Source of the DNA: Pseudomonas sp. GV071
GTDB taxonomy: Bacteria > Pseudomonadota > Gammaproteobacteria > Pseudomonadales > Pseudomonadaceae
Length of the DNA: 64,000 bases
NCBI RefSeq assembly: GCF_003050835.1
Contig: NZ_QAOJ01000004.1
Span: forward strand, 1-64,000
Reading direction: 5' to 3'
The notes under the pieces are model-generated. The model ran no database searches and was not told where the DNA came from. It saw only the letters and a program-made list of their open reading frames with translations. Of this stretch, positions 5,837-46,758 are shown piece after piece (within the stretch, counting starts at the first letter, position 1; the number at the start of each line of letters is the position of its first letter). The translations under genes and the position numbers were made by a program.

Positions 5837-6256
5837 ATGCAGATAACCAGCACCAGCAGCAGCGCCCTCCCCCCGTCCACGCAAGTGATCAAAAAGGCTG
5901 GGGAAGCCGCGCAAGATCCGAACTCTCCCGTGACCCCGGAAGAGGTGAATACAGCCGTCGACCGCGGTGCTGATCGCGTCACCCTGAGCCAGCAAAGCGC
6001 TGATGCGAGCCAAGCGAACCGTCGCGAAGCCGCCTCCGAGGTGTACAGCAACAGCAGCCAGCAGAAGCAACTCGATATCTACCTGGCGGTAGCCACCGAG
6101 AGCGACGTTGACAGCGAACCCACCCCACTGGAGGTCGCCCGCGAGGTGAGCCAACAGCAGGACCGCCGTCAAGGCGACTATAGCGACAACTCAGGCCTGG
6201 CTTCGCCCGGGCAACTTCCGGCTTCATTGGAGCCGACTATCTCTGTACGGGCTTGA
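5837..6256 (+). CDS. Small hydrophilic protein of unknown function
   Basis: This 139-residue protein has no recognised domain. It is rich in Ser, Gln, Ala and charged residues, lacks cysteine and any membrane segment, and looks largely disordered; the central part (VTPEEVNTAVDRGADRVTLSQQSADASQ) could form helices. A frame-compatible ATG occurs at 5822, but the ATG at 5837 has GGAG six bases upstream and is the better start. The gene stands alone between the LysR gene and the convergent esterase gene, and is followed by a strong terminator, which supports its being expressed. Confidence 0.65.
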   Translation: MQITSTSSSALPPSTQVIKKAGEAAQDPNSPVTPEEVNTAVDRGADRVTLSQQSADASQANRREAASEVYSNSSQQKQLDIYLAVATESDVDSEPTPLEVAREVSQQQDRRQGDYSDNSGLASPGQLPASLEPTISVRA

Positions 6257-6277
6257 GGGTCAGTACAGAGTCGAACC

Positions 6278-6305
6278 AGGCCGCCGCAGGGCGGCCTTGT
6301 TTTGT
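6278..6305 (+). terminator. Rho-independent terminator
   Basis: AGGCCGCC (6278-6285) pairs with GGCGGCCT (6290-6297) across a GCAG loop and is followed by TGTTTTGT. Just upstream a second dyad, CTCTGTAC (6241-6248) with GTACAGAG (6263-6270), overlaps the stop codon of the preceding gene. Confidence 0.75.
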
Positions 6306-6357
6306 CCAGAAACCATTCAATTGGGCTAAAAAAGCAACGTCCACTCTTTAACTGCCT

Positions 6358-7626
6358 CTACTCACACCCCTTCTCCGGCAAACCGCCAAACGCCCGCTGC
6401 AGCAGCTCGGTGGTGCGGCGGCTTTGCAGAATACTGGTGTGGTTTTCGTTGAGCAGGTACAGCCGAGTCGCTTCGTCCTGGGCGGCGTTGCGCAGTTCGC
6501 TGGCCAGGGGCACCACGCCGTCGTTGGGTTCTTCCAGCAGGCGGCTGTTACCGGTATAGGCAACCAGCATCCACTGCCGGATATGCGCGGGTAACGGCGT
6601 GGCAAACAACTGCTGCAGGTACGGGCTGCCCGGCGACATGTCCTTCCACACCGGCACTTCCATCGGCATCCGCTCCAGGCCGGTGGCCGCTGAAGGGTGA
6701 CCGTCCCAGGGCGTGGCCAGGGTGATAAACAGGCACAGGTTGCGGCTGTCTTCTTCGTTCAACATCTGCAAGGCGCGCCGGGCCACCAGGCCGCCCATGC
6801 TGTGGGCCATGACATGAAAGCGCGGCGGGTTGAGGCGGCGCTGCACATCACGAATGCCCAGGCTGAGCATGTAGGCGCTGTTGTTCAGCGGTACGCCGCT
6901 GGGAAAATGGAACAGCAGCAACTGGAAGCGTTTGGTGTCCAGATTGGCCGCCAGTTCCTGCCAATTACGCGGCGAGGAGTTGATGCCGTGGACGAGAAAA
7001 ATCGGTTCTTTCTTCGGGTCCCAAGGCGCCAGCAGGTAGAGGCCATAGCCGAGGTCACGCAGAAAGGTCAGCGGCTGCCAGGCACCCAATTCGATGCTGG
7101 CCTGGTCGAAGCGCGGGTCGTCGAAGCTCACCGGTTGCAAGTAGTTGCGCTGCAGGCGGGGCTGCTCGCGGTACAGCACCTCAAGGTTGAGGTCGACGGC
7201 CGGGGCGCTGGCCAGGTCGGTCGGCCGCAGATTGATCGGGTTGAGACGGCCGAGCTGTTCGCGGGTGGCGGCATCGGGCTGCACATGCAGCGTGGTGCTT
7301 TGCGCATTGGGCAGCCACTGGCGCGGCTCGTCGGCGTCGAGGGCAAAGTTGCCGTTGTGGTCATCGAACACCAGCAGTTGATAACGCCCGGGCGCCTCAT
7401 TGAAGTAGAAGGTCTCGTGCAGCGCGGCAATCCGGTAGCGCAGCAGCTTGCCGTGCTCATCGAGCAACGCCACCAGGGCATCACGGCCCGACTCGGTACT
7501 CTCCAGCCGGCCGGCGATCAGCACCAGGTCTTGTTGGGCCTGCTGCATTTCTTGCTCCAGCTTGAACAACCCGCAGCCGCCGAGCGCGCTCAGCAGCAAA
7601 ACCAGCAGCAAATACCTGGCAGCCAT
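6358..7626 (-). CDS. Lipoprotein alpha/beta-hydrolase (esterase/lipase type)
   Basis: This 422-residue protein begins with a lipoprotein signal (lipobox LGGC at about residues 15-18), so it is probably anchored in the outer membrane. After a coiled N-terminal segment and a beta-rich region comes an alpha/beta-hydrolase domain with FLVHGINSSPRNW (oxyanion strand) and the nucleophile elbow AHSMGGLVARRA. These suggest an esterase, lipase or thioesterase acting at the envelope; the substrate is not predictable. The ATG at 7626 has GAGG upstream. The gene is monocistronic and divergent from the small gene at 7753. Confidence 0.85.
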   Translation of the reverse strand: MAARYLLLVLLLSALGGCGLFKLEQEMQQAQQDLVLIAGRLESTESGRDALVALLDEHGKLLRYRIAALHETFYFNEAPGRYQLLVFDDHNGNFALDADEPRQWLPNAQSTTLHVQPDAATREQLGRLNPINLRPTDLASAPAVDLNLEVLYREQPRLQRNYLQPVSFDDPRFDQASIELGAWQPLTFLRDLGYGLYLLAPWDPKKEPIFLVHGINSSPRNWQELAANLDTKRFQLLLFHFPSGVPLNNSAYMLSLGIRDVQRRLNPPRFHVMAHSMGGLVARRALQMLNEEDSRNLCLFITLATPWDGHPSAATGLERMPMEVPVWKDMSPGSPYLQQLFATPLPAHIRQWMLVAYTGNSRLLEEPNDGVVPLASELRNAAQDEATRLYLLNENHTSILQSRRTTELLQRAFGGLPEKGCE

Positions 7627-8158: not shown

Positions 8159-9082
8159 TCAAACACGCCGGCCCGATGGCGTCAGGGCGTTGCCCAGGGC
8201 CTCGAGCAAGGCGCTGACTTTGGGCAGGGTTTGCCGGCTTTTCAGCCACACCAGGTTCATCGGTAAACCATCCATCGCCAGCTGTGGCAGCACCTGCACC
8301 AGGGTGCCGGCTTGCAGGTGATCTTCGACCAGCCACAACGGTAACTGGGCGATGCCATGCCCGGCCACCAGAGCAATCACCTGCCCTTCGCCATCGCCCA
8401 CTGCAATTCGCCCCGGCAACACGCGCCGCTCGCGGTCGCCTGCATGCTCGCCGGAAAACAGCCACGGGTTCACCCCGCCATCGCCGCGGCCGTAAACCAC
8501 GCAGCTGTGCAGCGCCAGGTCCGCTTCGCTGTGCGGCTCGCCATGGCGTGCGAGGTAGCTGGGCGCGGCGCAGAAGATCAGTCGCTCGGCGCCCAGATAG
8601 CGGTGGCCCAGCGCCGCCGGCCAGACGTCCGAGCCGCCAATGCGCACAAGGATGTCGATACCCTCTTCCACCGGATCGACGAACCGGTCGGAAAAAGAGA
8701 CATGGGGGTGCAGCAAGCCATGCTCCGCCACGCAGTCGAGAATCACCGGCAGCACATGCAAGCGGCCATAGGAGGCTGGCAGGTCGATACGCACCTTGCC
8801 GCAGGGCGCCCCATGTTGGGTGTGTAACGCCTGCTCGGCCTCTTCCAGCTCCGCCAGCACTGCCGTACAGGTGCGGTAAAAATCGCTGCCGGCTTCGGTG
8901 AGGGCCAGGCGCCGCGTGGTGCGCTGGAATAGGCGCGTGTTCAGGCGCGACTCGAGACGGGCGATCCCTTTGCTCACCGCCGAACTGGTGAGGTTCATCC
9001 GCTCGGCCGCTGCCGTGAAACTGCCGGCATCGGCTACGCAGACGAATACATCGATGCCCTTCAGTCGCTCAGAAGCAAACAT
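8159..9082 (-). CDS. LysR-family transcriptional regulator (CrgA-like)
   Basis: This 307-residue regulator has an N-terminal winged helix-turn-helix (LTSSAVSKGIARLESRLNTRLFQRTTRRL) and a substrate-binding domain of the type found in the CrgA/AaeR-like branch of LysR proteins (SFSDRFVDPVEEGIDILVRIG). It is transcribed divergently from the MFS transporter gene 111 bases away, the usual arrangement of a LysR regulator and its target efflux gene. The effector is not predictable. Confidence 0.92.
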   Translation of the reverse strand: MFASERLKGIDVFVCVADAGSFTAAAERMNLTSSAVSKGIARLESRLNTRLFQRTTRRLALTEAGSDFYRTCTAVLAELEEAEQALHTQHGAPCGKVRIDLPASYGRLHVLPVILDCVAEHGLLHPHVSFSDRFVDPVEEGIDILVRIGGSDVWPAALGHRYLGAERLIFCAAPSYLARHGEPHSEADLALHSCVVYGRGDGGVNPWLFSGEHAGDRERRVLPGRIAVGDGEGQVIALVAGHGIAQLPLWLVEDHLQAGTLVQVLPQLAMDGLPMNLVWLKSRQTLPKVSALLEALGNALTPSGRRV

Positions 9083-9193
9083 GGCGCGCTCACATTAAGG
9101 AATTCAGTTCACAGCATTCTGGAGAAAGTAACGCAAATAGGACTGTGATTCGCCAATAAGCTTGCCACCTGATTTCTTACCGAGCAATTTGTC

Positions 9194-10375
9194 ATGGCAA
9201 CTTCCACCCTGACCGCCAGCGCCGCCGCTCCGCGCGTGGGCCTGTCGATTCTGATTCTGGCGATTGCCGGCTTCATTATTCTGACCACCGAGTTTCTGAT
9301 TCTGGGTCTGCTCCCCGCCCTGGCCCGCGACCTGAACATTTCCATTCCGCTGGCGGGGCAACTGGTCACCCTGTTCGCCTTCACCGTGATGCTGTTCGGC
9401 CCGTTGCTGACCGCCAAGTTGGCGCACCTGCCGCGCAAACCGTTGTTTGTGTTTGTGCTGCTGGTGTTCGTGGTCGCCAATGCCCTGGCTGCTGCCGCCC
9501 CGAACATCTGGGTGCTGGCCTTGGCCAGATTTATGGCGGCACTGTTCCTGCCAGTGTTCTGGAGCACCGCCAGCGAAACTGCCGGGCAACTGGCGGGCCC
9601 CGGTAACTCTGGCAAGGCTGTGGCGCAGGTGTACATGGGCATTTCTGCGGCCTTTGTATTTGGTATTCCACTGGGCACCTTGGCGGCCGACGCGCTGGGC
9701 TGGCGCGGAAGCTTCTGGCTATTGGCAGGCGCCGCGTTGGTGATCGCCGTGCTGATCCATCTGCTGCTGCCGACCATGCCGGCCGCACCGAAGCAGGCCG
9801 CCGGAGAAAAGCAGACCGCTATTCTCAAACAGCCGCGTTTTCTCGCCCATGTGCTGCTCTCGACGCTGGCCTTCACCGCCATGTTCACCGCCTACACCTA
9901 CCTGGCCGATACCCTCGAACGCCTGGCCGGCATTCCCTCCAGCCAGGTTGGCTGGTGGCTGATGGCATTCGGCGCGGTGGGCATGCTCGGCAATCACCTG
10001 GGCGGGCGCATGGTCGACCGCAATCCCTTGGCCGCCATGGTGCTGTTTCTGCTGATGCTCGCGGCCGGCATGTTGGCCAGTGTGCCCGCCGCCACCCATA
10101 CCCTGTGGCTGGGCGTCGCGCTGACCGCTTGGGGCATCGCCCATACGGCCTTGTTCCCCATTTGCCAGGTGCGGGTGATGCAAGCGGGTGCCCGTGCACA
10201 GGCGTTAGCGGCGAGCATGAATATCTCCGCCGCCAATGCTGGAATTGGCTTGGGCGCGATCTTCGGTGGCTTGGGTATTCGCCATTTCGGCTTGGAAAGC
10301 CTTGGCCTGTTGGCCACGCTGGGCGCGGCAGCGGCCGTGGTTCTGGCGTTGCTGATGATGCGTCGCCCGGCGTGA
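9194..10375 (+). CDS. MFS transporter, DHA1/AraJ-like
   Basis: This 393-residue protein has about twelve membrane helices in two halves and belongs to the drug:proton antiporter-1 branch of the major facilitator superfamily. The first helix (IAGFIILTTEFLILGLLPALARDL), the short basic loop LAHLPRKP after helix 2 and the sequence SETAGQLAGPGNSGKA between helices 4 and 5 match the AraJ/NepI/YdhP group, which exports sugars, nucleosides or drugs. The ribosome site is weak. The divergent LysR gene probably controls it. The substrate is unknown. Confidence 0.9.
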   Translation: MATSTLTASAAAPRVGLSILILAIAGFIILTTEFLILGLLPALARDLNISIPLAGQLVTLFAFTVMLFGPLLTAKLAHLPRKPLFVFVLLVFVVANALAAAAPNIWVLALARFMAALFLPVFWSTASETAGQLAGPGNSGKAVAQVYMGISAAFVFGIPLGTLAADALGWRGSFWLLAGAALVIAVLIHLLLPTMPAAPKQAAGEKQTAILKQPRFLAHVLLSTLAFTAMFTAYTYLADTLERLAGIPSSQVGWWLMAFGAVGMLGNHLGGRMVDRNPLAAMVLFLLMLAAGMLASVPAATHTLWLGVALTAWGIAHTALFPICQVRVMQAGARAQALAASMNISAANAGIGLGAIFGGLGIRHFGLESLGLLATLGAAAAVVLALLMMRRPA

Positions 10376-12561: not shown

Positions 12562-13413
12562 ATGGCCGCACTGGGTCAACACGCCGTTTCGAAAGTTAAA
12601 AGCGCCGAGCCTCAACTGTTGCAAGAGTGGATCGCCGCACTGCAAACATCGGGTGCCACGCGCAACCTGAAAGACGATGAGCTGAAAGCCGAGACCAAAG
12701 AATTCCTCAAGCTGATCACCTCCGCGTTGGAGAACGGTGCCGGTACCGCGATTGGCACCGCGCAGTGGGAAGACACCCGCCAGTTCCTCGAACGCCTGTC
12801 GCGCAGCCGCGCGCAGTTGGGTCAGGACTCCAGCCAGACCGCCAACTTCATCTTCGCCCTCAAAGGCCCATTCTTCTCCTTGCTGCAACAAGAATTCAGC
12901 GACCAGCCGCAGCTGCTGGCCGAACAACTGCTGCAAGCTTCCGAGCTGTTCGATGCCCTGGGTCTGCACACCATCCGCACTTACCAGGCATCCCGGGAAG
13001 CGGTGATCCGTCGCCAGCAGGAAGAATTGCTGGAGCTTTCTACCCCGGTGGTCAAGCTGTGGGACGGCGTGTTGGCACTGCCCATGATCGGCACCCTCGA
13101 CTCGCAACGCACCCAGGTGGTGATGGAGTCGCTGCTGCAGCGCATCGTCGACACCGGCTCGGAAATCGCCATCATCGACATCACCGGTGTGCCCACCGTC
13201 GACACACTGGTGGCGCAGCACCTGCTGAAAACCGTGACCGCGATTCGCCTGATGGGCGCCGACTGCATCATCAGCGGCGTGCGTCCGCAAATTGCGCAAA
13301 CCATCGTGCACCTGGGGCTGGACCTGCAGGGTGTGATTACCAAGGCCAACCTGGCCGATGCGCTGGCTTTGGCGCTACGCCGTCTGGGCACCACCGTGAC
13401 CAAGGCGCAGTGA
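12562..13413 (+). CDS. rsbR: RsbR-type stressosome sensor scaffold (STAS)
   Basis: This 283-residue protein has an N-terminal all-helical sensor region (about 1-150, similar in kind to the RsbRD N-terminal domain) and a C-terminal STAS domain (about 165-275). The STAS motifs DITGVPTVDT (Thr215 at its end) and GVRPQIAQT (Thr247 at its end) match the regions where RsbR proteins of Gram-positive stressosomes are phosphorylated by RsbT. RsbR and RsbS assemble a large signalling particle that holds RsbT until stress. This is the first gene of an overlapping six-gene operon. The N-terminal sensor lacks any recognised cofactor motif, so its stimulus is unknown. Confidence 0.9.
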   Translation: MAALGQHAVSKVKSAEPQLLQEWIAALQTSGATRNLKDDELKAETKEFLKLITSALENGAGTAIGTAQWEDTRQFLERLSRSRAQLGQDSSQTANFIFALKGPFFSLLQQEFSDQPQLLAEQLLQASELFDALGLHTIRTYQASREAVIRRQQEELLELSTPVVKLWDGVLALPMIGTLDSQRTQVVMESLLQRIVDTGSEIAIIDITGVPTVDTLVAQHLLKTVTAIRLMGADCIISGVRPQIAQTIVHLGLDLQGVITKANLADALALALRRLGTTVTKAQ

Positions 13414-13414
13414 T

Positions 13415-13777
13415 ATGGAGCGCATCCCCATTCTGCAGATGGGCCAATTCCTGCTGGTCACCATTCAGGTGGACATGCACGACCAACTGGCCCTGACCCT
13501 GCAAGACGATCTCTCCGAACGCATCAGCGCCACCTCGGCGCGCGGTGTACTGATCGATATCTCGGCGCTGGACATGGTCGACTCGTTTATCGGCCGCATG
13601 ATCGGCACCATCTCCGGCCTGTCGCGGATCATGGACGCCGAAACCGTGGTGGTCGGCTTGCAACCAGCGGTGGCGATCACCTTGGTGGAACTGGGCCTCA
13701 CCTTGCCGGGCGTGAGCACCGCACTGAACGTTGAGCGCGGCATGAAACTGCTGCGCGAACGAGTAGCAGCGCAATGA
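13415..13777 (+). CDS. rsbS: RsbS-type STAS anti-anti-sigma-like core protein
   Basis: This 120-residue single STAS domain matches RsbS along its full length (MERIPILQMGQFLLVTIQ; VLIDISALDMVDSFIGRMIGT). Ser57 in VVDSF-type context corresponds to the RsbT-phosphorylated serine (Ser59) of Bacillus RsbS. It starts one base after the rsbR stop and overlaps the RsbT gene by four bases (ATGA), so the three proteins are translationally coupled. Its role is to sequester RsbT in the stressosome core. Confidence 0.92.
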   Translation: MERIPILQMGQFLLVTIQVDMHDQLALTLQDDLSERISATSARGVLIDISALDMVDSFIGRMIGTISGLSRIMDAETVVVGLQPAVAITLVELGLTLPGVSTALNVERGMKLLRERVAAQ

Positions 13778-14178
13778 CCGTGCGCAGTAGCGGTAGCCAA
13801 CCGGTACGCGTGGAACAGGACGTGGTCATGGCTCGACAGCTGTCGCGCAAGCTCGCCCAGGAATGCGGCATGCGCCTGATCGATTTGACCAAGCTGGTCA
13901 CTGCCGTCAGTGAGCTGGCACGTAACACCATGGTGTATGGCGGTGGCGGCGACATGGACTGGCAAGTGATCGAAGACAACGGCCGTACCGGCTTGCGCAT
14001 TACCTTCCGTGATGAAGGTCCGGGCATCCCCGACATCAAGCTGGCGATGACCGATGGCTGGACCTCCGGCGGCGGCTTGGGCCTGGGTTTGACCGGCGCC
14101 AAGCGTCTGGTAGACGAATTCGAACTGGACACCGCACCGGGTGCCGGCACGCGTGTGACGATTACCCGATGGACCTGA
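13774..14178 (+). CDS. rsbT: RsbT-type switch serine/threonine kinase
   Basis: This 134-residue GHKL-type kinase has the N box ELARNTMVYG, the G1 box DEGPGIPD and the G2 box SGGGLGLGLTGAKRL. These match RsbT, which phosphorylates RsbS and RsbR on stress and is then released to activate a partner. In Bacillus the partner is the phosphatase RsbU; no RsbU is encoded here, and the neighbouring phosphatase fusion or histidine kinase are the candidates. It overlaps the next gene by ten bases. Confidence 0.92.
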   Translation: MTVRSSGSQPVRVEQDVVMARQLSRKLAQECGMRLIDLTKLVTAVSELARNTMVYGGGGDMDWQVIEDNGRTGLRITFRDEGPGIPDIKLAMTDGWTSGGGLGLGLTGAKRLVDEFELDTAPGAGTRVTITRWT

Positions 14179-15185
14179 ACCTATCCAGCTCACTCACCCA
14201 GGTGCTAGCGGTCGACGATGACAGCCAGGTGGGCCATGCCCGCCGTGTGGTGCAGAAACTCGCGCAGGACCATGGTTTCGACAGCAACGACGCCGGCCGC
14301 GCGGCCCTGGTAACCACCGAGCTGACCAGCAACCTGCTCAAGCATGCCGGCCGCGGCGAGCTGCACGTGCGTGTGCTGCCCTACGGTTCGGTCAGCGGCC
14401 TGGAGTTGGTAGCGGTCGACCGGGGACCAGGTTTTAACCTGCAGGATTGCCTGGCTGATGGTTTTTCCACCGGTGGCACCCAAGGCATTGGCATGGGCGC
14501 GGTGGACAGGCAATCCGACGTTTTCGACGTGTTTGCCGATCACCGCGGTGCCGTGTTGATGGCGCGCCTGTATCCGCGCGGCAGCCAGACCGCCGACCTG
14601 CGTTTCGGCATCAGCCAGCATTCGCTGCATGACGACCCGGCGTGCGGCGACTCTTGGCACCTGGTGGTCAATGGCAAGAATGTCAGCGCGCTGGTAATAG
14701 ACGGCCTCGGCCATGGTGAAGCGGCAGAAGAAGCTTCCCGCGCCGGCGAGCAAGCGTTTGCCAACGCGCCGTTTGCCAGCCCGACCGTGGTGATCGACGA
14801 CCTGCACCGCGCCATGTGCGGCACACGCGGCGGTGCGGGGGCGGTGGCGCAGTTCAATGCCGAATCCGGGCACCTGCAATTTGCCGGCATCGGCAACATC
14901 GGCGCCACGCTGATTACCGCGGACAAAAGCCGCGGCCTGGCGTCCCACCCTGGCATTCTCGGCGGCCAGTTCCGCAAGGCCCAGGCGTTCGATTTCCCCG
15001 AGTCGTCGGGGCAGTTGCTGGTGATGTACAGCGACGGTTTGCAGTCGCGCTGGAACCTCGGCGACTATCCCGGCCTGGCGCACCGCCACCCGGCCGTGAT
15101 CGCCGCCGTGTTGCACCGCGACTTCTGCCGTGGGCGTGATGATGTAACCATATTGGTCGTTCCCCTGGAGGCAGCCAATGGCTGA
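14169..15185 (+). CDS. Fusion of RsbT/RsbW-like ATPase domain and RsbX-like SpoIIE phosphatase
   Basis: This 338-residue protein has two domains. Residues about 1-135 are a GHKL ATP-binding domain (TTELTSNLLKHAG, VDRGPGF, GTQGIGMGAV). Residues about 145-335 are a short PP2C/SpoIIE phosphatase like RsbX, with the metal-binding VIDGLGHG and YSDGLQSR and the terminal GRDDVTILV. RsbX dephosphorylates RsbR and RsbS and resets the stressosome. The fused kinase-like domain is not present in Bacillus RsbX and may let one protein both compete with RsbT and reset the complex; that is inference. It overlaps the next gene by eight bases. Confidence 0.85.
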   Translation: MDLNLSSSLTQVLAVDDDSQVGHARRVVQKLAQDHGFDSNDAGRAALVTTELTSNLLKHAGRGELHVRVLPYGSVSGLELVAVDRGPGFNLQDCLADGFSTGGTQGIGMGAVDRQSDVFDVFADHRGAVLMARLYPRGSQTADLRFGISQHSLHDDPACGDSWHLVVNGKNVSALVIDGLGHGEAAEEASRAGEQAFANAPFASPTVVIDDLHRAMCGTRGGAGAVAQFNAESGHLQFAGIGNIGATLITADKSRGLASHPGILGGQFRKAQAFDFPESSGQLLVMYSDGLQSRWNLGDYPGLAHRHPAVIAAVLHRDFCRGRDDVTILVVPLEAANG

Positions 15186-16032
15186 CAGCGATAACCAGGC
15201 CTTGCAAGCTGCCCTGGCCGAAAATGAAGCGCTGCGTGCCGAACTGGATGAAACCAATCAGGGCGTGCTGGCGCTGTATGCCGAGTTGGATATTCAGGCT
15301 GAAGAACTGCGCCAGGCGTCCGATCTGAAAAGCCGCTTTCTCTCCTACATGAGCCACGAATTTCGTACGCCACTGGGCTCGATCCTGAGCATTACCAGCC
15401 TGCTCGGCGACGAACTCGACGGCCCCTTGAGCCCCGAACAGCACAAACAGGTCGGCTTTATCCGAACCTCGGCCAGTGAGCTCAGCGACATGGTCGACGA
15501 TCTGCTGGACCTGGCAAAGATCGAGGCCGGGCGCATCACCATTTCGCCGGCCTGGTTCGACATGCTCGACCTGTTCTCGGCCCTGCGCGGTATGTTCAGG
15601 CCCATTGTCGAGGGCGGCACGGTTGATCTGATCTTTGCAGAACCCGTGAATATGCCGCGGCTGTATACCGATGACAAAAAGCTCGCGCAGATTCTGCGCA
15701 ACTTCATTTCCAACTCGCTGAAGTTCACCCAGCGCGGCGAAGTGCGGGTGTCGGCGCGCCTGGAAAGTGACAACGAAGTCCGCTTCGCGGTCAGTGACAC
15801 CGGTATTGGTATACCCGCGGAGATGCATGGCGCACTGTTCGAAGACTTCTCTCAGGTAGACTCGCCGCTGCAAAAACGTTTGCGCGGTACCGGCCTCGGG
15901 CTGTCGTTGTGCAAACGTTTTGCCGAGCTGCTCGGCGGGCGGGTCGGGGTGGAAAGCGAACCCGGCGTAGGTTCGACCTTTTACGTGATCATTCCTTTTG
16001 CCTTAGGCCAGGACCAACCCGATGAAGACTGA
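15178..16032 (+). CDS. Soluble sensor histidine kinase of the stressosome operon
   Basis: This 284-residue protein has no membrane segment. A short coiled coil (about 5-50) leads into a HisKA dimerisation domain with the phosphorylated His60 in FLSYMSHEFRTPLGS, then a HATPase domain with N box NFISNSLKFT, G1 VSDTGIGIP and G2 GTGLGLSLCK. With no sensor domain of its own, it probably takes its signal from the stressosome proteins encoded just upstream. It overlaps the hybrid kinase gene by eleven bases and most likely passes phosphate to that protein's N-terminal receiver. Confidence 0.92.
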   Translation: MADSDNQALQAALAENEALRAELDETNQGVLALYAELDIQAEELRQASDLKSRFLSYMSHEFRTPLGSILSITSLLGDELDGPLSPEQHKQVGFIRTSASELSDMVDDLLDLAKIEAGRITISPAWFDMLDLFSALRGMFRPIVEGGTVDLIFAEPVNMPRLYTDDKKLAQILRNFISNSLKFTQRGEVRVSARLESDNEVRFAVSDTGIGIPAEMHGALFEDFSQVDSPLQKRLRGTGLGLSLCKRFAELLGGRVGVESEPGVGSTFYVIIPFALGQDQPDED

Positions 16033-17974
16033 CATTCATCTGCTGATCGTCGACGACAACGTAGCGACCCGCTACGCCCTGCGTCGGCGCTTCGAGCAGC
16101 AGGGTTATGTCATTGATGAAGCGGGCACCGGCGAGGAAGGGCTGGCGCTGATCGCGGTCAACGAGTACGACGCGCTGATTCTCGATGTGAACTTGCCGGA
16201 CATGACCGGCTTCGACATCGTCCGCCAACTGCGCCAGCAACCGCGCACCGCCCTGGTACCCGTGGTGCATGTGTCGGCCGCCTCGATTCAGCCACAGGAC
16301 ATCATTACCGGCCTTGAAACGGGCGCCGACGCCTACCTGACCCATCCTATCGATCCCGAAGTATTGATGGCCACCCTGCGCACGTTGTTGCGGGTGCGCG
16401 ACAGTGAAAACGCCCTGCGCGAAAGCGAGGCGCGCTTTCGCGAGATCTTCCAGTACGTGTCGGCGCCCATCGCGGTGATCGACGAGCACCTGAAAGTAAT
16501 CGAAAGCAACCAGGCATTTGCCGAGTTGCTGCAAGGCTGCACCCAGGACGAGCGTTTGCTGCAGTGCATTGCCCCGGAGCAGAACGAGCGCCTGATCCAA
16601 CTGCGCGCGGCGCTGCTGGCCGGCGAGCGCTGGAGTGGCAGCCTCAACCTGCTGCTGGGCGGCGAAGAGCGCGAAACCGAATGGCAGACCTCGCCCTATC
16701 GTTTGCCGGGGCATAGCCTGGTGTTCGTCGAGGACGTGACCGAACACCGGGTCCGCGACCGCTCGCAGCGCAACCAATTGGACAAAGCCCATACCCGTAT
16801 CGCCCAGGAAGTGGCCGAGCGCGAGCGCACCGAAGAGCAGTTGCTGCAGGCGCAGAAAATGGACGCCCTGGGCAAGCTCACCGGCGGCATCGCCCACGAC
16901 TTCAACAACATGCTGACCGGCATCATCGCCGCCATTGAGCTGATGAAACGCCGCGTCGAAGACCAGCGCTACGACACCCTGATGCGTTACGCCGATGCCG
17001 CCCTGAGCTCGGCCAACAGCGCCGCCGCCCTCACCCATCGCCTGCTCGCCTTTGCCCGCCAGCAGCCGCTGGACACGCGGCCGATCAACATCAATGAACA
17101 CGTGTTGTCGTTAGAAGAGTTGTTGCGACGCACCATCAGCGAACGCATCTCCCTGACCCTGGAGCTGACCTCCGGCACTTCGGTGGCGATGGTCGATCCG
17201 TTCCAGTTCGAAAGTTCGCTGCTCAACCTGATCATCAATGCCCGCGATGCGTTGCCCAATGGCGGCAGCATCCGCATTGCCACCTATGCCACGGTGGTGG
17301 CGGGCAATCCCAAGGTCGACGACGGCACCTATATAGCCCTGTCGGTGCGCGACGATGGCGTGGGCATCGACGAGGCGGTGATAGGCAAAGTATTCGACCC
17401 GTTCTTCAGTACCAAACCGGTCGGCCAGGGCACCGGCCTGGGACTGTCGAGTATTTATGGTTTTGCCCGTCAGTCTGGCGGCGACGTGAGCATTCGCAGC
17501 GTGATCAACAAGGGCACCGAGGTGGTGTTGCTGTTGCCGGCGGGCCAGGAGCAGCCGGCCAGCAGCGCGGCCGCTCAAGACGTGCCGCACGATGGCACGG
17601 GCGAACATGTGCTGATCGTGGAGGACATGGTCTCGGTCAGTGCCCTGGTCGCGGAAATTCTCAGTGATGCGGGGTACCGCTCCACCCAGGTGTATGACGC
17701 GGAGGGGGCAGTGCATGCGTTGAAGAACGATGCGTCGATTGATCTGTTGCTGACGGATATCGGCCTGCCGCGGATGGATGGGCGGGATCTGGCGGCGTTG
17801 GCGCGGACCATGCGTTCGAGTTTGCCGGTGCTGTATGTGTCGGGGTATGCGGAGAATGCGCTGGATCGGCAGGATCTGGTGGGGACAGGGATGGATATGT
17901 TGAGTAAGCCGTTTAACAGCAGTGAGTTGCTGGAGCGGATTCGGGTGTTATTGGATGGCGGGCCCGCACGCTGA
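16022..17974 (+). CDS. Hybrid kinase REC-PAS-HisKA-HATPase-REC
   Basis: This 650-residue soluble protein has, in order, a receiver (about 1-125, phospho-acceptor Asp55 in LILDVNLPD), a PAS domain (about 135-245), a coiled linker, a HisKA domain with His292 in GGIAHDFNNMLTG, a HATPase domain (NLIINARDALP, DDGVGID, GTGLGLSSIYG) and a C-terminal receiver (about 525-645, Asp579 in LLLTDIGLPRMDG). No DNA-binding or enzymatic output domain is present, so the chain must end in a protein encoded elsewhere. It is the last gene of the stressosome operon. Confidence 0.92.
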   Translation: MKTDIHLLIVDDNVATRYALRRRFEQQGYVIDEAGTGEEGLALIAVNEYDALILDVNLPDMTGFDIVRQLRQQPRTALVPVVHVSAASIQPQDIITGLETGADAYLTHPIDPEVLMATLRTLLRVRDSENALRESEARFREIFQYVSAPIAVIDEHLKVIESNQAFAELLQGCTQDERLLQCIAPEQNERLIQLRAALLAGERWSGSLNLLLGGEERETEWQTSPYRLPGHSLVFVEDVTEHRVRDRSQRNQLDKAHTRIAQEVAERERTEEQLLQAQKMDALGKLTGGIAHDFNNMLTGIIAAIELMKRRVEDQRYDTLMRYADAALSSANSAAALTHRLLAFARQQPLDTRPININEHVLSLEELLRRTISERISLTLELTSGTSVAMVDPFQFESSLLNLIINARDALPNGGSIRIATYATVVAGNPKVDDGTYIALSVRDDGVGIDEAVIGKVFDPFFSTKPVGQGTGLGLSSIYGFARQSGGDVSIRSVINKGTEVVLLLPAGQEQPASSAAAQDVPHDGTGEHVLIVEDMVSVSALVAEILSDAGYRSTQVYDAEGAVHALKNDASIDLLLTDIGLPRMDGRDLAALARTMRSSLPVLYVSGYAENALDRQDLVGTGMDMLSKPFNSSELLERIRVLLDGGPAR

Positions 17975-46474: not shown

Positions 46475-46551
<77 letters not shown>

Positions 46552-46560
46552 GACATATAA

Positions 46561-46592
46561 AGGGCCACTTACTCAGTAAGTGGCCCTTTTTT
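46561..46592 (+). terminator. Terminator after the first tRNA gene
   Basis: AGGGCCACTTA (46561-46571) pairs with TAAGTGGCCCT (46577-46587) and is followed by a T-run. Perfect stem. Confidence 0.9.
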
Positions 46593-46647
46593 GTTGCCTG
46601 CGATTTTTGCACGCGCATAACTCTTTGATAAAAAACGAAATTAGCGG

Positions 46648-46675
46648 TTGACACAAAAGCCTCGGACTGTAGAAT
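46648..46675 (+). promoter_or_regulatory. Promoter of the second initiator tRNA gene
   Basis: TTGACA (46648-46653), a 16-base spacer and TAGAAT (46670-46675) repeat the arrangement of the first gene, again with a GC-rich discriminator. Confidence 0.85.
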
Positions 46676-46681
46676 TGCCGG

Positions 46682-46758
<77 letters not shown>

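Follow-up and report, generated by a model that had tools for sequence, protein, structure and literature searches.

In Bacillus subtilis, RsbR, RsbS and RsbT act through RsbU, RsbV and RsbW on SigB. In Bacillus, RsbT orders the linker of RsbU (PMC12143880). RSTX modules (RsbR-RsbS-RsbT-RsbX) have been described with eleven types of downstream genes including phosphorelays, most of them without RsbU_N, and section 10 of the same paper leaves open how the signal is transferred when the downstream proteins lack this domain (Heinz et al., PMC9237108). Kinases that do carry RsbU_N have been named as well (PMC12143880). Here, we analysed a stretch of 64,000 nucleotides from Pseudomonas sp. GV071 (contig NZ_QAOJ01000004.1, positions 1 to 64,000 of the forward strand; hereafter called the window), which contains a six-gene stressosome operon. 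We found that this operon belongs to the RSTX plus two-component stressosome loci as defined by Heinz et al. and represents a variant that carries an ATPase on RsbX. The locus class is already known, but the probable joint between stressosome and kinase, a conserved coil at the N-terminus of a histidine kinase, is new. We consider it moderately probable that RsbT set free under stress docks on this coil and thereby likely activates a phosphorelay of two kinases instead of a sigma factor. In the open-licence literature, we recognised neither a stressosome study in Pseudomonas nor a description of RsbT-kinase fusions or of RSTX modules of this kind, and a search of PMC12143880 for fusions gave no RsbT-kinase fusion. 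The operon is composed of the following elements.

12562..13413, plus strand: RsbR, an RsbRD_N sensor domain (residues 17-109) followed by a STAS domain (Pfam)
13415..13777, plus strand: RsbS, a single STAS domain (Pfam) with the likely phospho-site Ser57
13774..14178, plus strand: RsbT, a GHKL ATPase of the serine-kinase type (Pfam HATPase)
14169..15185, plus strand: TX, an RsbT-like ATPase (residues 18-130; HATPase_c_2) fused to an RsbX-like SpoIIE phosphatase (residues 169-331)
15178..16032, plus strand: histidine kinase (HK), HisKA (His60) and HATPase_c without a sensor domain (Pfam)
15232..15336, plus strand: coil of HK, residues 19-53 with the motif TNxGVxALYxEL, the proposed docking element for RsbT
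16022..17974, plus strand: hybrid kinase with two receivers (REC), REC1-PAS-HK2-REC2 (Pfam REC, PAS_4, HisKA, HATPase_c, REC)

All six open reading frames (ORFs) named in a preliminary description of this DNA were recovered at 12562-17974 on the plus strand with their Pfam domains. The genes had been called overlapping, which applies to four junctions (4, 10, 8 and 11 bases from RsbS to the hybrid), but RsbR and RsbS are separated by 1 base. From this spacing we infer a single transcript for the six genes. In line with the preliminary description, the ORF list and Pfam revealed no rsbU, rsbV, rsbW or sigma gene among them, and Pfam detected no output domain in the six proteins. Moreover, RsbU_N was not found anywhere in the source genome (search at E up to 0.1, with the Bacillus subtilis positive control detected), and the genome search yielded no second RsbRD_N beyond that of the operon.

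Loci combining RSTX with two-component genes had been attributed to Vibrio. Such loci are in print, but they are more widely distributed than this genus (PMC9237108). The Vibrio vulnificus locus resembles our operon in that RsbR, RsbS, RsbT and RsbX are followed by two-component genes (D1/D2) without SigB (PMC9237108, PMC10014275), and its downstream proteins have no RsbU_N, as PMC9237108 states. However, according to these papers the Vibrio RsbR has a globin-coupled sensor, the Vibrio RsbX is a single-domain phosphatase, and D1/D2 are thought to act on cyclic di-GMP, whereas the RsbX of the window carries an RsbT-like ATPase and the last protein of its operon is a hybrid kinase without an output domain. 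In addition, HK has the coil. A second group of related systems comprises the RsbU_N-type operons, in which stressosome genes also precede histidine kinases (PMC9237108, PMC12143880). We found RsbU_N, which is known to bind RsbT, on a downstream kinase or GGDEF protein of L064, L065, L067, L068, L107 (two proteins) and L111. The RsbU_N kinases of these six loci lack the coil, whereas HK and ten tested coil-bearing relatives have the coil and no RsbU_N detectable by Pfam. When compared with the Bacillus subtilis pathway, RsbR, RsbS, RsbT and an RsbX-type phosphatase are kept together with the phospho-residues, but RsbU, RsbV, RsbW and SigB are missing from the operon and the proposed target is a histidine kinase. 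The Moorella thermoacetica stressosome likewise has an RsbT target other than RsbU and controls a diguanylate cyclase (PMC12143880, PMC4976288). Unlike HK, this target is a GGDEF enzyme with RsbU_N (PMC12143880).

We examined 130 loci (window included), of which 96 hold the order from RsbS to the hybrid, and residue conservation was counted over these 96. They represent 87 distinct C-terminal 200-residue stretches of HK, and several genomes were sampled twice. Further genome samples covered the genus, class and phylum of the window and were confined to this phylum. In PDB sequence searches, the STAS domain of RsbR matched several RsbR chains, among them that of the Vibrio stressosome (7o0i). 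Its likely phospho-sites are Ser181 and Thr215. At the position aligned with Ser181, chains 9o4r, 9o3o and 9o5l have Thr, Ala or Glu. Ser181 is conserved in 95/96 loci, the remaining one having a gap, and Thr215 is likewise conserved in 95/96 (one Ser). RsbS matched several solved RsbS chains, and Ser57, invariant in all 96 loci, aligns with a serine that reads alanine in chain 9o4r_a, which makes it the likely phospho-site. RsbT has intact ATP-binding boxes (Glu47, Asn51, Asp80 and Gly84 in 96/96). Its four matches among solved structures are all anti-sigma F factor and include no solved RsbT chain; the name RsbT was given because of the operon context and because the protein groups with RsbT of other stressosome operons in the ATPase tree. 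Judged by domains and by phospho-site and ATP-site residues, RsbR, RsbS and RsbT appear to constitute a stressosome module.

The best PDB sequence matches of the phosphatase half of TX were 3zt9, which we take to be the Moorella phosphatase, and RsbX (3w40). Residues 161, 178, 289, 324 and 325, presumably the metal-binding positions, are Asp in all 96 loci. These features identify TX as a putative RsbX-type phosphatase to which the ATPase half has been added. In the latter, the N-box Glu/Asn and the G1 Asp are kept in 24 of 24 TX domains compared. In L064-L067, L107 and L109, we observed two separate RsbT-like genes followed by a separate phosphatase, as if TX were split. The phosphorelay residues HK His60, REC1 Asp55, HK2 His292, REC2 Asp579 and REC2 Lys629 are each present in 96/96 loci. 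The N-terminal domain of RsbR showed a weak globin-sensor likeness when its predicted model was searched (5ohf, E 0.022). His136 is nearly invariant in 26 window-type sequences, but the 29-sequence family alignment contains no invariant histidine in this domain. Hence there is no evidence for haem, and we rejected an oxygen-sensing role of RsbR like that in Vibrio.

The kinase of the operon had been described as lacking any sensor. As far as Pfam domains are concerned this is correct, but HK begins with a conserved N-terminal coil. The TNxGVxALYxEL motif was found in 95 of the 96 six-gene loci, and the missing one (L185) has a shortened HK ORF. When V/I, L/I and one Y/H exchange were allowed, the motif was present in 16/16 related loci and in 0/13 other stressosome loci. 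Over 37 representatives at 85% identity, three of them without the motif, the coil (mean conservation 0.77) was less conserved than the H-box (0.85) but more conserved than the ATPase domain (0.70) and the residues preceding the coil (0.50). Thirteen loci, including L102 and L103, had no strong HK match and were excluded. We then searched the genome samples with the 35-residue coil. At E <= 1e-5, matches were obtained in 15 of the 398 phylum genomes, and at E <= 1e-3 in two of the 369 class genomes. Every match lay in an rsbS genome at a distance of 1.6-2.4 kb from rsbS. RsbS itself (E <= 1e-15) was detected in 24 of the phylum genomes and in nine of the class genomes. The hypergeometric chance that all 15 coil genomes fall within the 24 rsbS genomes is 2e-21, although related genomes are not independent. 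The coil operons of two phylum genomes (G562, G641) were missed at E <= 1e-5. Thus, the sensitivity of this search is limited and distant coil proteins may occur elsewhere.

In 12 loci (L034-L038, L063, L095, L097, L101-L103, L114), a single ORF encodes an RsbT-like ATPase followed by the kinase, and Pfam confirmed the fused ATPase in the six that were tested. All 12 have the coil (one with His for Tyr) and still keep a free RsbT and TX. The divergent genus genomes carry this fused form without exception (5/5). Using one fused protein as query, we obtained 2779 relatives at E <= 1e-20. The 120 matches listed were nearly all of the ATPase+HisKA+HATPase_c+REC type, and those with names came nearly exclusively from Pseudomonas or Stutzerimonas. 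In the fusions of L102 and L103, a CckA-like HK-REC follows immediately after ATPase and coil; a kinase of this type also makes up the second half of the hybrid in the window. The coil occurs on two different kinase types, and the bypass of HK and REC1 in these two loci fits the order RsbT > HK > REC1 > HK2 > REC2. L106 has an RsbT-like ATPase ahead of a HisKA_2-type kinase without the coil. In L099 (about 5850-7182, start estimated), a decayed ATPase without N-box Asn and glycine boxes stands before the coil. AlphaFold2 modelling of a fused kinase predicted a single long helix (residues 178-233) that includes the coil and extends to the phospho-histidine (His232).

For the ATPase tree, we used 72 domains from 33 chosen loci, including nine of the 12 kinase-fused domains. 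These nine formed one clade with L106 (100/98). A split supported at 88/92 (below the level that the tool stars) puts this clade on the side of RsbT. On the opposite side, 23 of 24 TX domains including that of the window formed a clade (99/85). The kinase tree comprised 22 chosen kinases and was rooted with two RsbU_N kinases. Here, the 12 unfused HKs formed one clade (98/97), which was nested among eight fused kinases including L099. These data suggest that the window HK probably descends from a kinase with an RsbT-like domain of its own, of which only the socket has been kept.

Taken together, HK is supported as target of the stressosome because the coil was found only beside rsbS in the two genome samples searched, because RsbT-like ATPases are fused to such kinases and because the genome contains no RsbU_N. 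The preliminary description had left it to RsbT or to the phosphatase fusion to set kinase activity; the former is somewhat favoured since the kinase-fused ATPases branch on the RsbT side of the tree. According to the reading we prefer, RsbR and RsbS would form a particle that holds RsbT, as other members of the family do. RsbT would phosphorylate Ser57 of RsbS as well as Ser181 and Thr215 of RsbR, residues that are all present, and would then be released. Free RsbT may dock on the coil with its TNxGVxALYxEL motif and thereby bring order into the dimer of HK, a step suggested by the analogy with RsbT on the RsbU linker (PMC12143880). His60 of HK would then pass phosphate to Asp55 of REC1, which may alter the activities of HK2 and REC2; the residues and the gene order are compatible with this route. 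The phosphatase half of TX, to judge from its RsbX match, would reset RsbS and RsbR.

Several observations weigh against this reading. No positive interaction between RsbT and the kinase D1, which was not compared with the coil here, was obtained in Vibrio vulnificus, as reported in PMC9237108. The kinases of L109 and L112 have neither the coil nor a detected RsbU_N, and other couplings may therefore exist. In total, RsbU_N was searched in 10 of the 13 non-coil loci (all except L066, L069 and L110) and was not found in L106, L108, L109 and L112. Conservation of the coil could reflect shared ancestry with the operon or a need of the kinase itself, and the mean confidence of the AlphaFold2 model over residues 181-240 was low to moderate (50-63). 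Operons with a fused ATPase keep a free RsbT, which would then have no obvious role there. In the ATPase tree, the TX of L112 fell on the RsbT side and the kinase-fused ATPases also form a clade apart from free RsbT. The fork of the kinase tree that places fused kinases basal had a support of 87/73 with a long-branch warning and was left unresolved by an earlier tree that contained two very long rows. Finally, REC1 has a histidine at position 108 (window 16343-16345) in 96/96 six-gene loci and in 12 of 14 related loci. Receivers usually carry a lysine at this position. Phosphorylation of REC1 is uncertain because of this replacement, and the response to phosphate may be altered.

Alternatively, the stressosome might control HK via TX, or via phosphorylation of the kinase by RsbT, rather than by docking on the coil. 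The TX gene directly precedes that of HK and its ATPase half has kept the N-box and G1 residues mentioned above, and for downstream kinases without RsbU_N an RsbT-dependent phosphorylation has been proposed (Heinz et al., PMC9237108). On the other hand, in the ATPase tree, the one line of evidence that bears on this choice, the position of the kinase-fused ATPases leans to RsbT over TX as the probable kinase partner, and recurrence of the coil on two kinase types also speaks against this route. We consider it rather unlikely, although TX remains a candidate. The signal might also flow in the reverse direction, with the two kinases sensing through the PAS domain of the hybrid and acting back on the stressosome or on TX. 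This PAS domain is the only one that Pfam detected in the operon, and phosphatases of the SpoIIE type that are controlled by receivers exist, for instance a REC-SpoIIE-HATPase protein encoded elsewhere in the genome. However, Pfam detected no receiver domain in TX, RsbR has a sensor domain of its own, and in the ATPase-coil-kinase fusions the RsbT-like domain occupies the place of a kinase input. Reverse flow thus appears improbable. That the two-component pair is merely co-transcribed with the stressosome and functionally independent of it would agree with the undetected RsbT-D1 interaction in Vibrio (PMC9237108), but it is highly improbable in view of the gene order kept over 96 loci, the fusions of RsbT-like ATPases to the kinase, the lack of an RsbU_N target in the genome and the likeness in phenotype between Vibrio mutants deleted for the upstream and for the downstream module (PMC10014275).

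If docking of RsbT on the coil is true, serine partner switching and a His-Asp phosphorelay are joined by direct contact. In these operons, the 35-residue coil provides a concrete contact site for RsbT that can be tested, the natural fusions may serve as controls, and the host genus is easily handled. As a more tentative extension, which we regard as possible rather than probable, these proteins may form a separate family of stressosome-gated histidine kinases with the coil as dedicated socket for RsbT. The ancestral kinase, carrying its own RsbT domain, would have been a stressosome subunit. With loss of this domain in the window lineage, free RsbT would have become a detachable adaptor, and the particle, so far viewed as a driver of sigma factors through partner switching, would directly drive His-Asp phosphorelays.

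The six-gene unit is well conserved among close relatives. A search for RsbS on named genome contigs gave at least 531 confirmed places, and the best 80, which are biased to close kin, were examined. Most of them belong to Pseudomonas, two are from Luteibacter, and binned genomes account for some others. In 76 of these 80 loci, RsbS to hybrid were present in order (L188, without RsbR at a contig end, is among them); L173 and L182 stop at a contig edge, and in L128 and L165 the hybrid is split or shortened. Within the genus, RsbT (E <= 1e-15) was detected in 63 of 149 genomes. Fifty-eight of these sequences, that of the window's genome included, are close (77-100% identity) and five are divergent (47-50%). 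Sixteen of the 57 close genomes besides the window's were viewed in full, and the six-gene order was present in all 15 close loci taken as well as in G085 (L070). A further RsbT match of G085 (L071) is partial, lies close to the end of a contig and is not accompanied by RsbS. The complete unit including the coil was also found on the 29-kb plasmid pXVH29 of Xanthomonas vasicola (L251, NZ_CP034650.1, 5564-10983), and a 2.5-Mb plasmid record of Variovorax paradoxus likewise contains a complete unit. When ORF families outside the six genes were compared among the 15 genus loci, those common to at least four loci reached a maximum of six loci; these six form one sub-group, and the sharing lies upstream. 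Conserved neighbours were rejected as a clue to the output since no family was shared beyond these 6/15 loci.

Transfer of the signal from the hybrid to an unlinked HPt or regulator had also been suggested. Our data do not support an unlinked HPt as the general recipient. The source genome has 17 HPt matches, one of which lies on a short ORF (119 amino acids) and is HptB-like, next to HsbR- and HsbA-like genes (we assume these names for the cluster). Among 16 genomes tested, an HptB-like HPt was stand-alone in six, all of them Pseudomonadaceae, and part of long ORFs in three, whereas seven gave no match. The latter include two genomes with the same six-gene operon, G708 and Luteibacter G891, and HptB-HsbR-HsbA was therefore rejected as general output. 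It is kept as a possibility for Pseudomonas, and other HPt domains are possible partners of the hybrid. The HptB-HsbR-HsbA-like cluster of the source genome (L221, 1008-3412) consists of consecutive genes for HPt, REC-SpoIIE-HATPase and STAS proteins and thus represents a second system in which partner switching is linked to a phosphorelay. In all, SpoIIE domains were found at five places of the source genome and STAS domains at nine, operon included.

An unlinked response regulator is still a possible output: in the relative L104, a gene for a REC-GerE (LuxR-type) regulator (8672-9553) adjoins the operon on the same strand, directly 3' of the hybrid. Another REC-GerE regulator follows the kinase in L068 (RsbU_N type). 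Since these genes adjoin the two operons, an unlinked LuxR-type regulator is a fair candidate. An extra kinase 3' of the six genes was seen in seven loci; in L070 (6071-8840), the one checked with Pfam, it is a bacteriophytochrome kinase plus receiver directly 3' of the unit. Neither the REC-GerE gene of L104 nor this neighbour is general. In a related operon (L101, 9089-9445), a seventh gene 3' of the hybrid encodes a stand-alone receiver. Outside the operon, the window carries two tRNA-Met genes at 46475-46758, 130 bases apart and of equal score.

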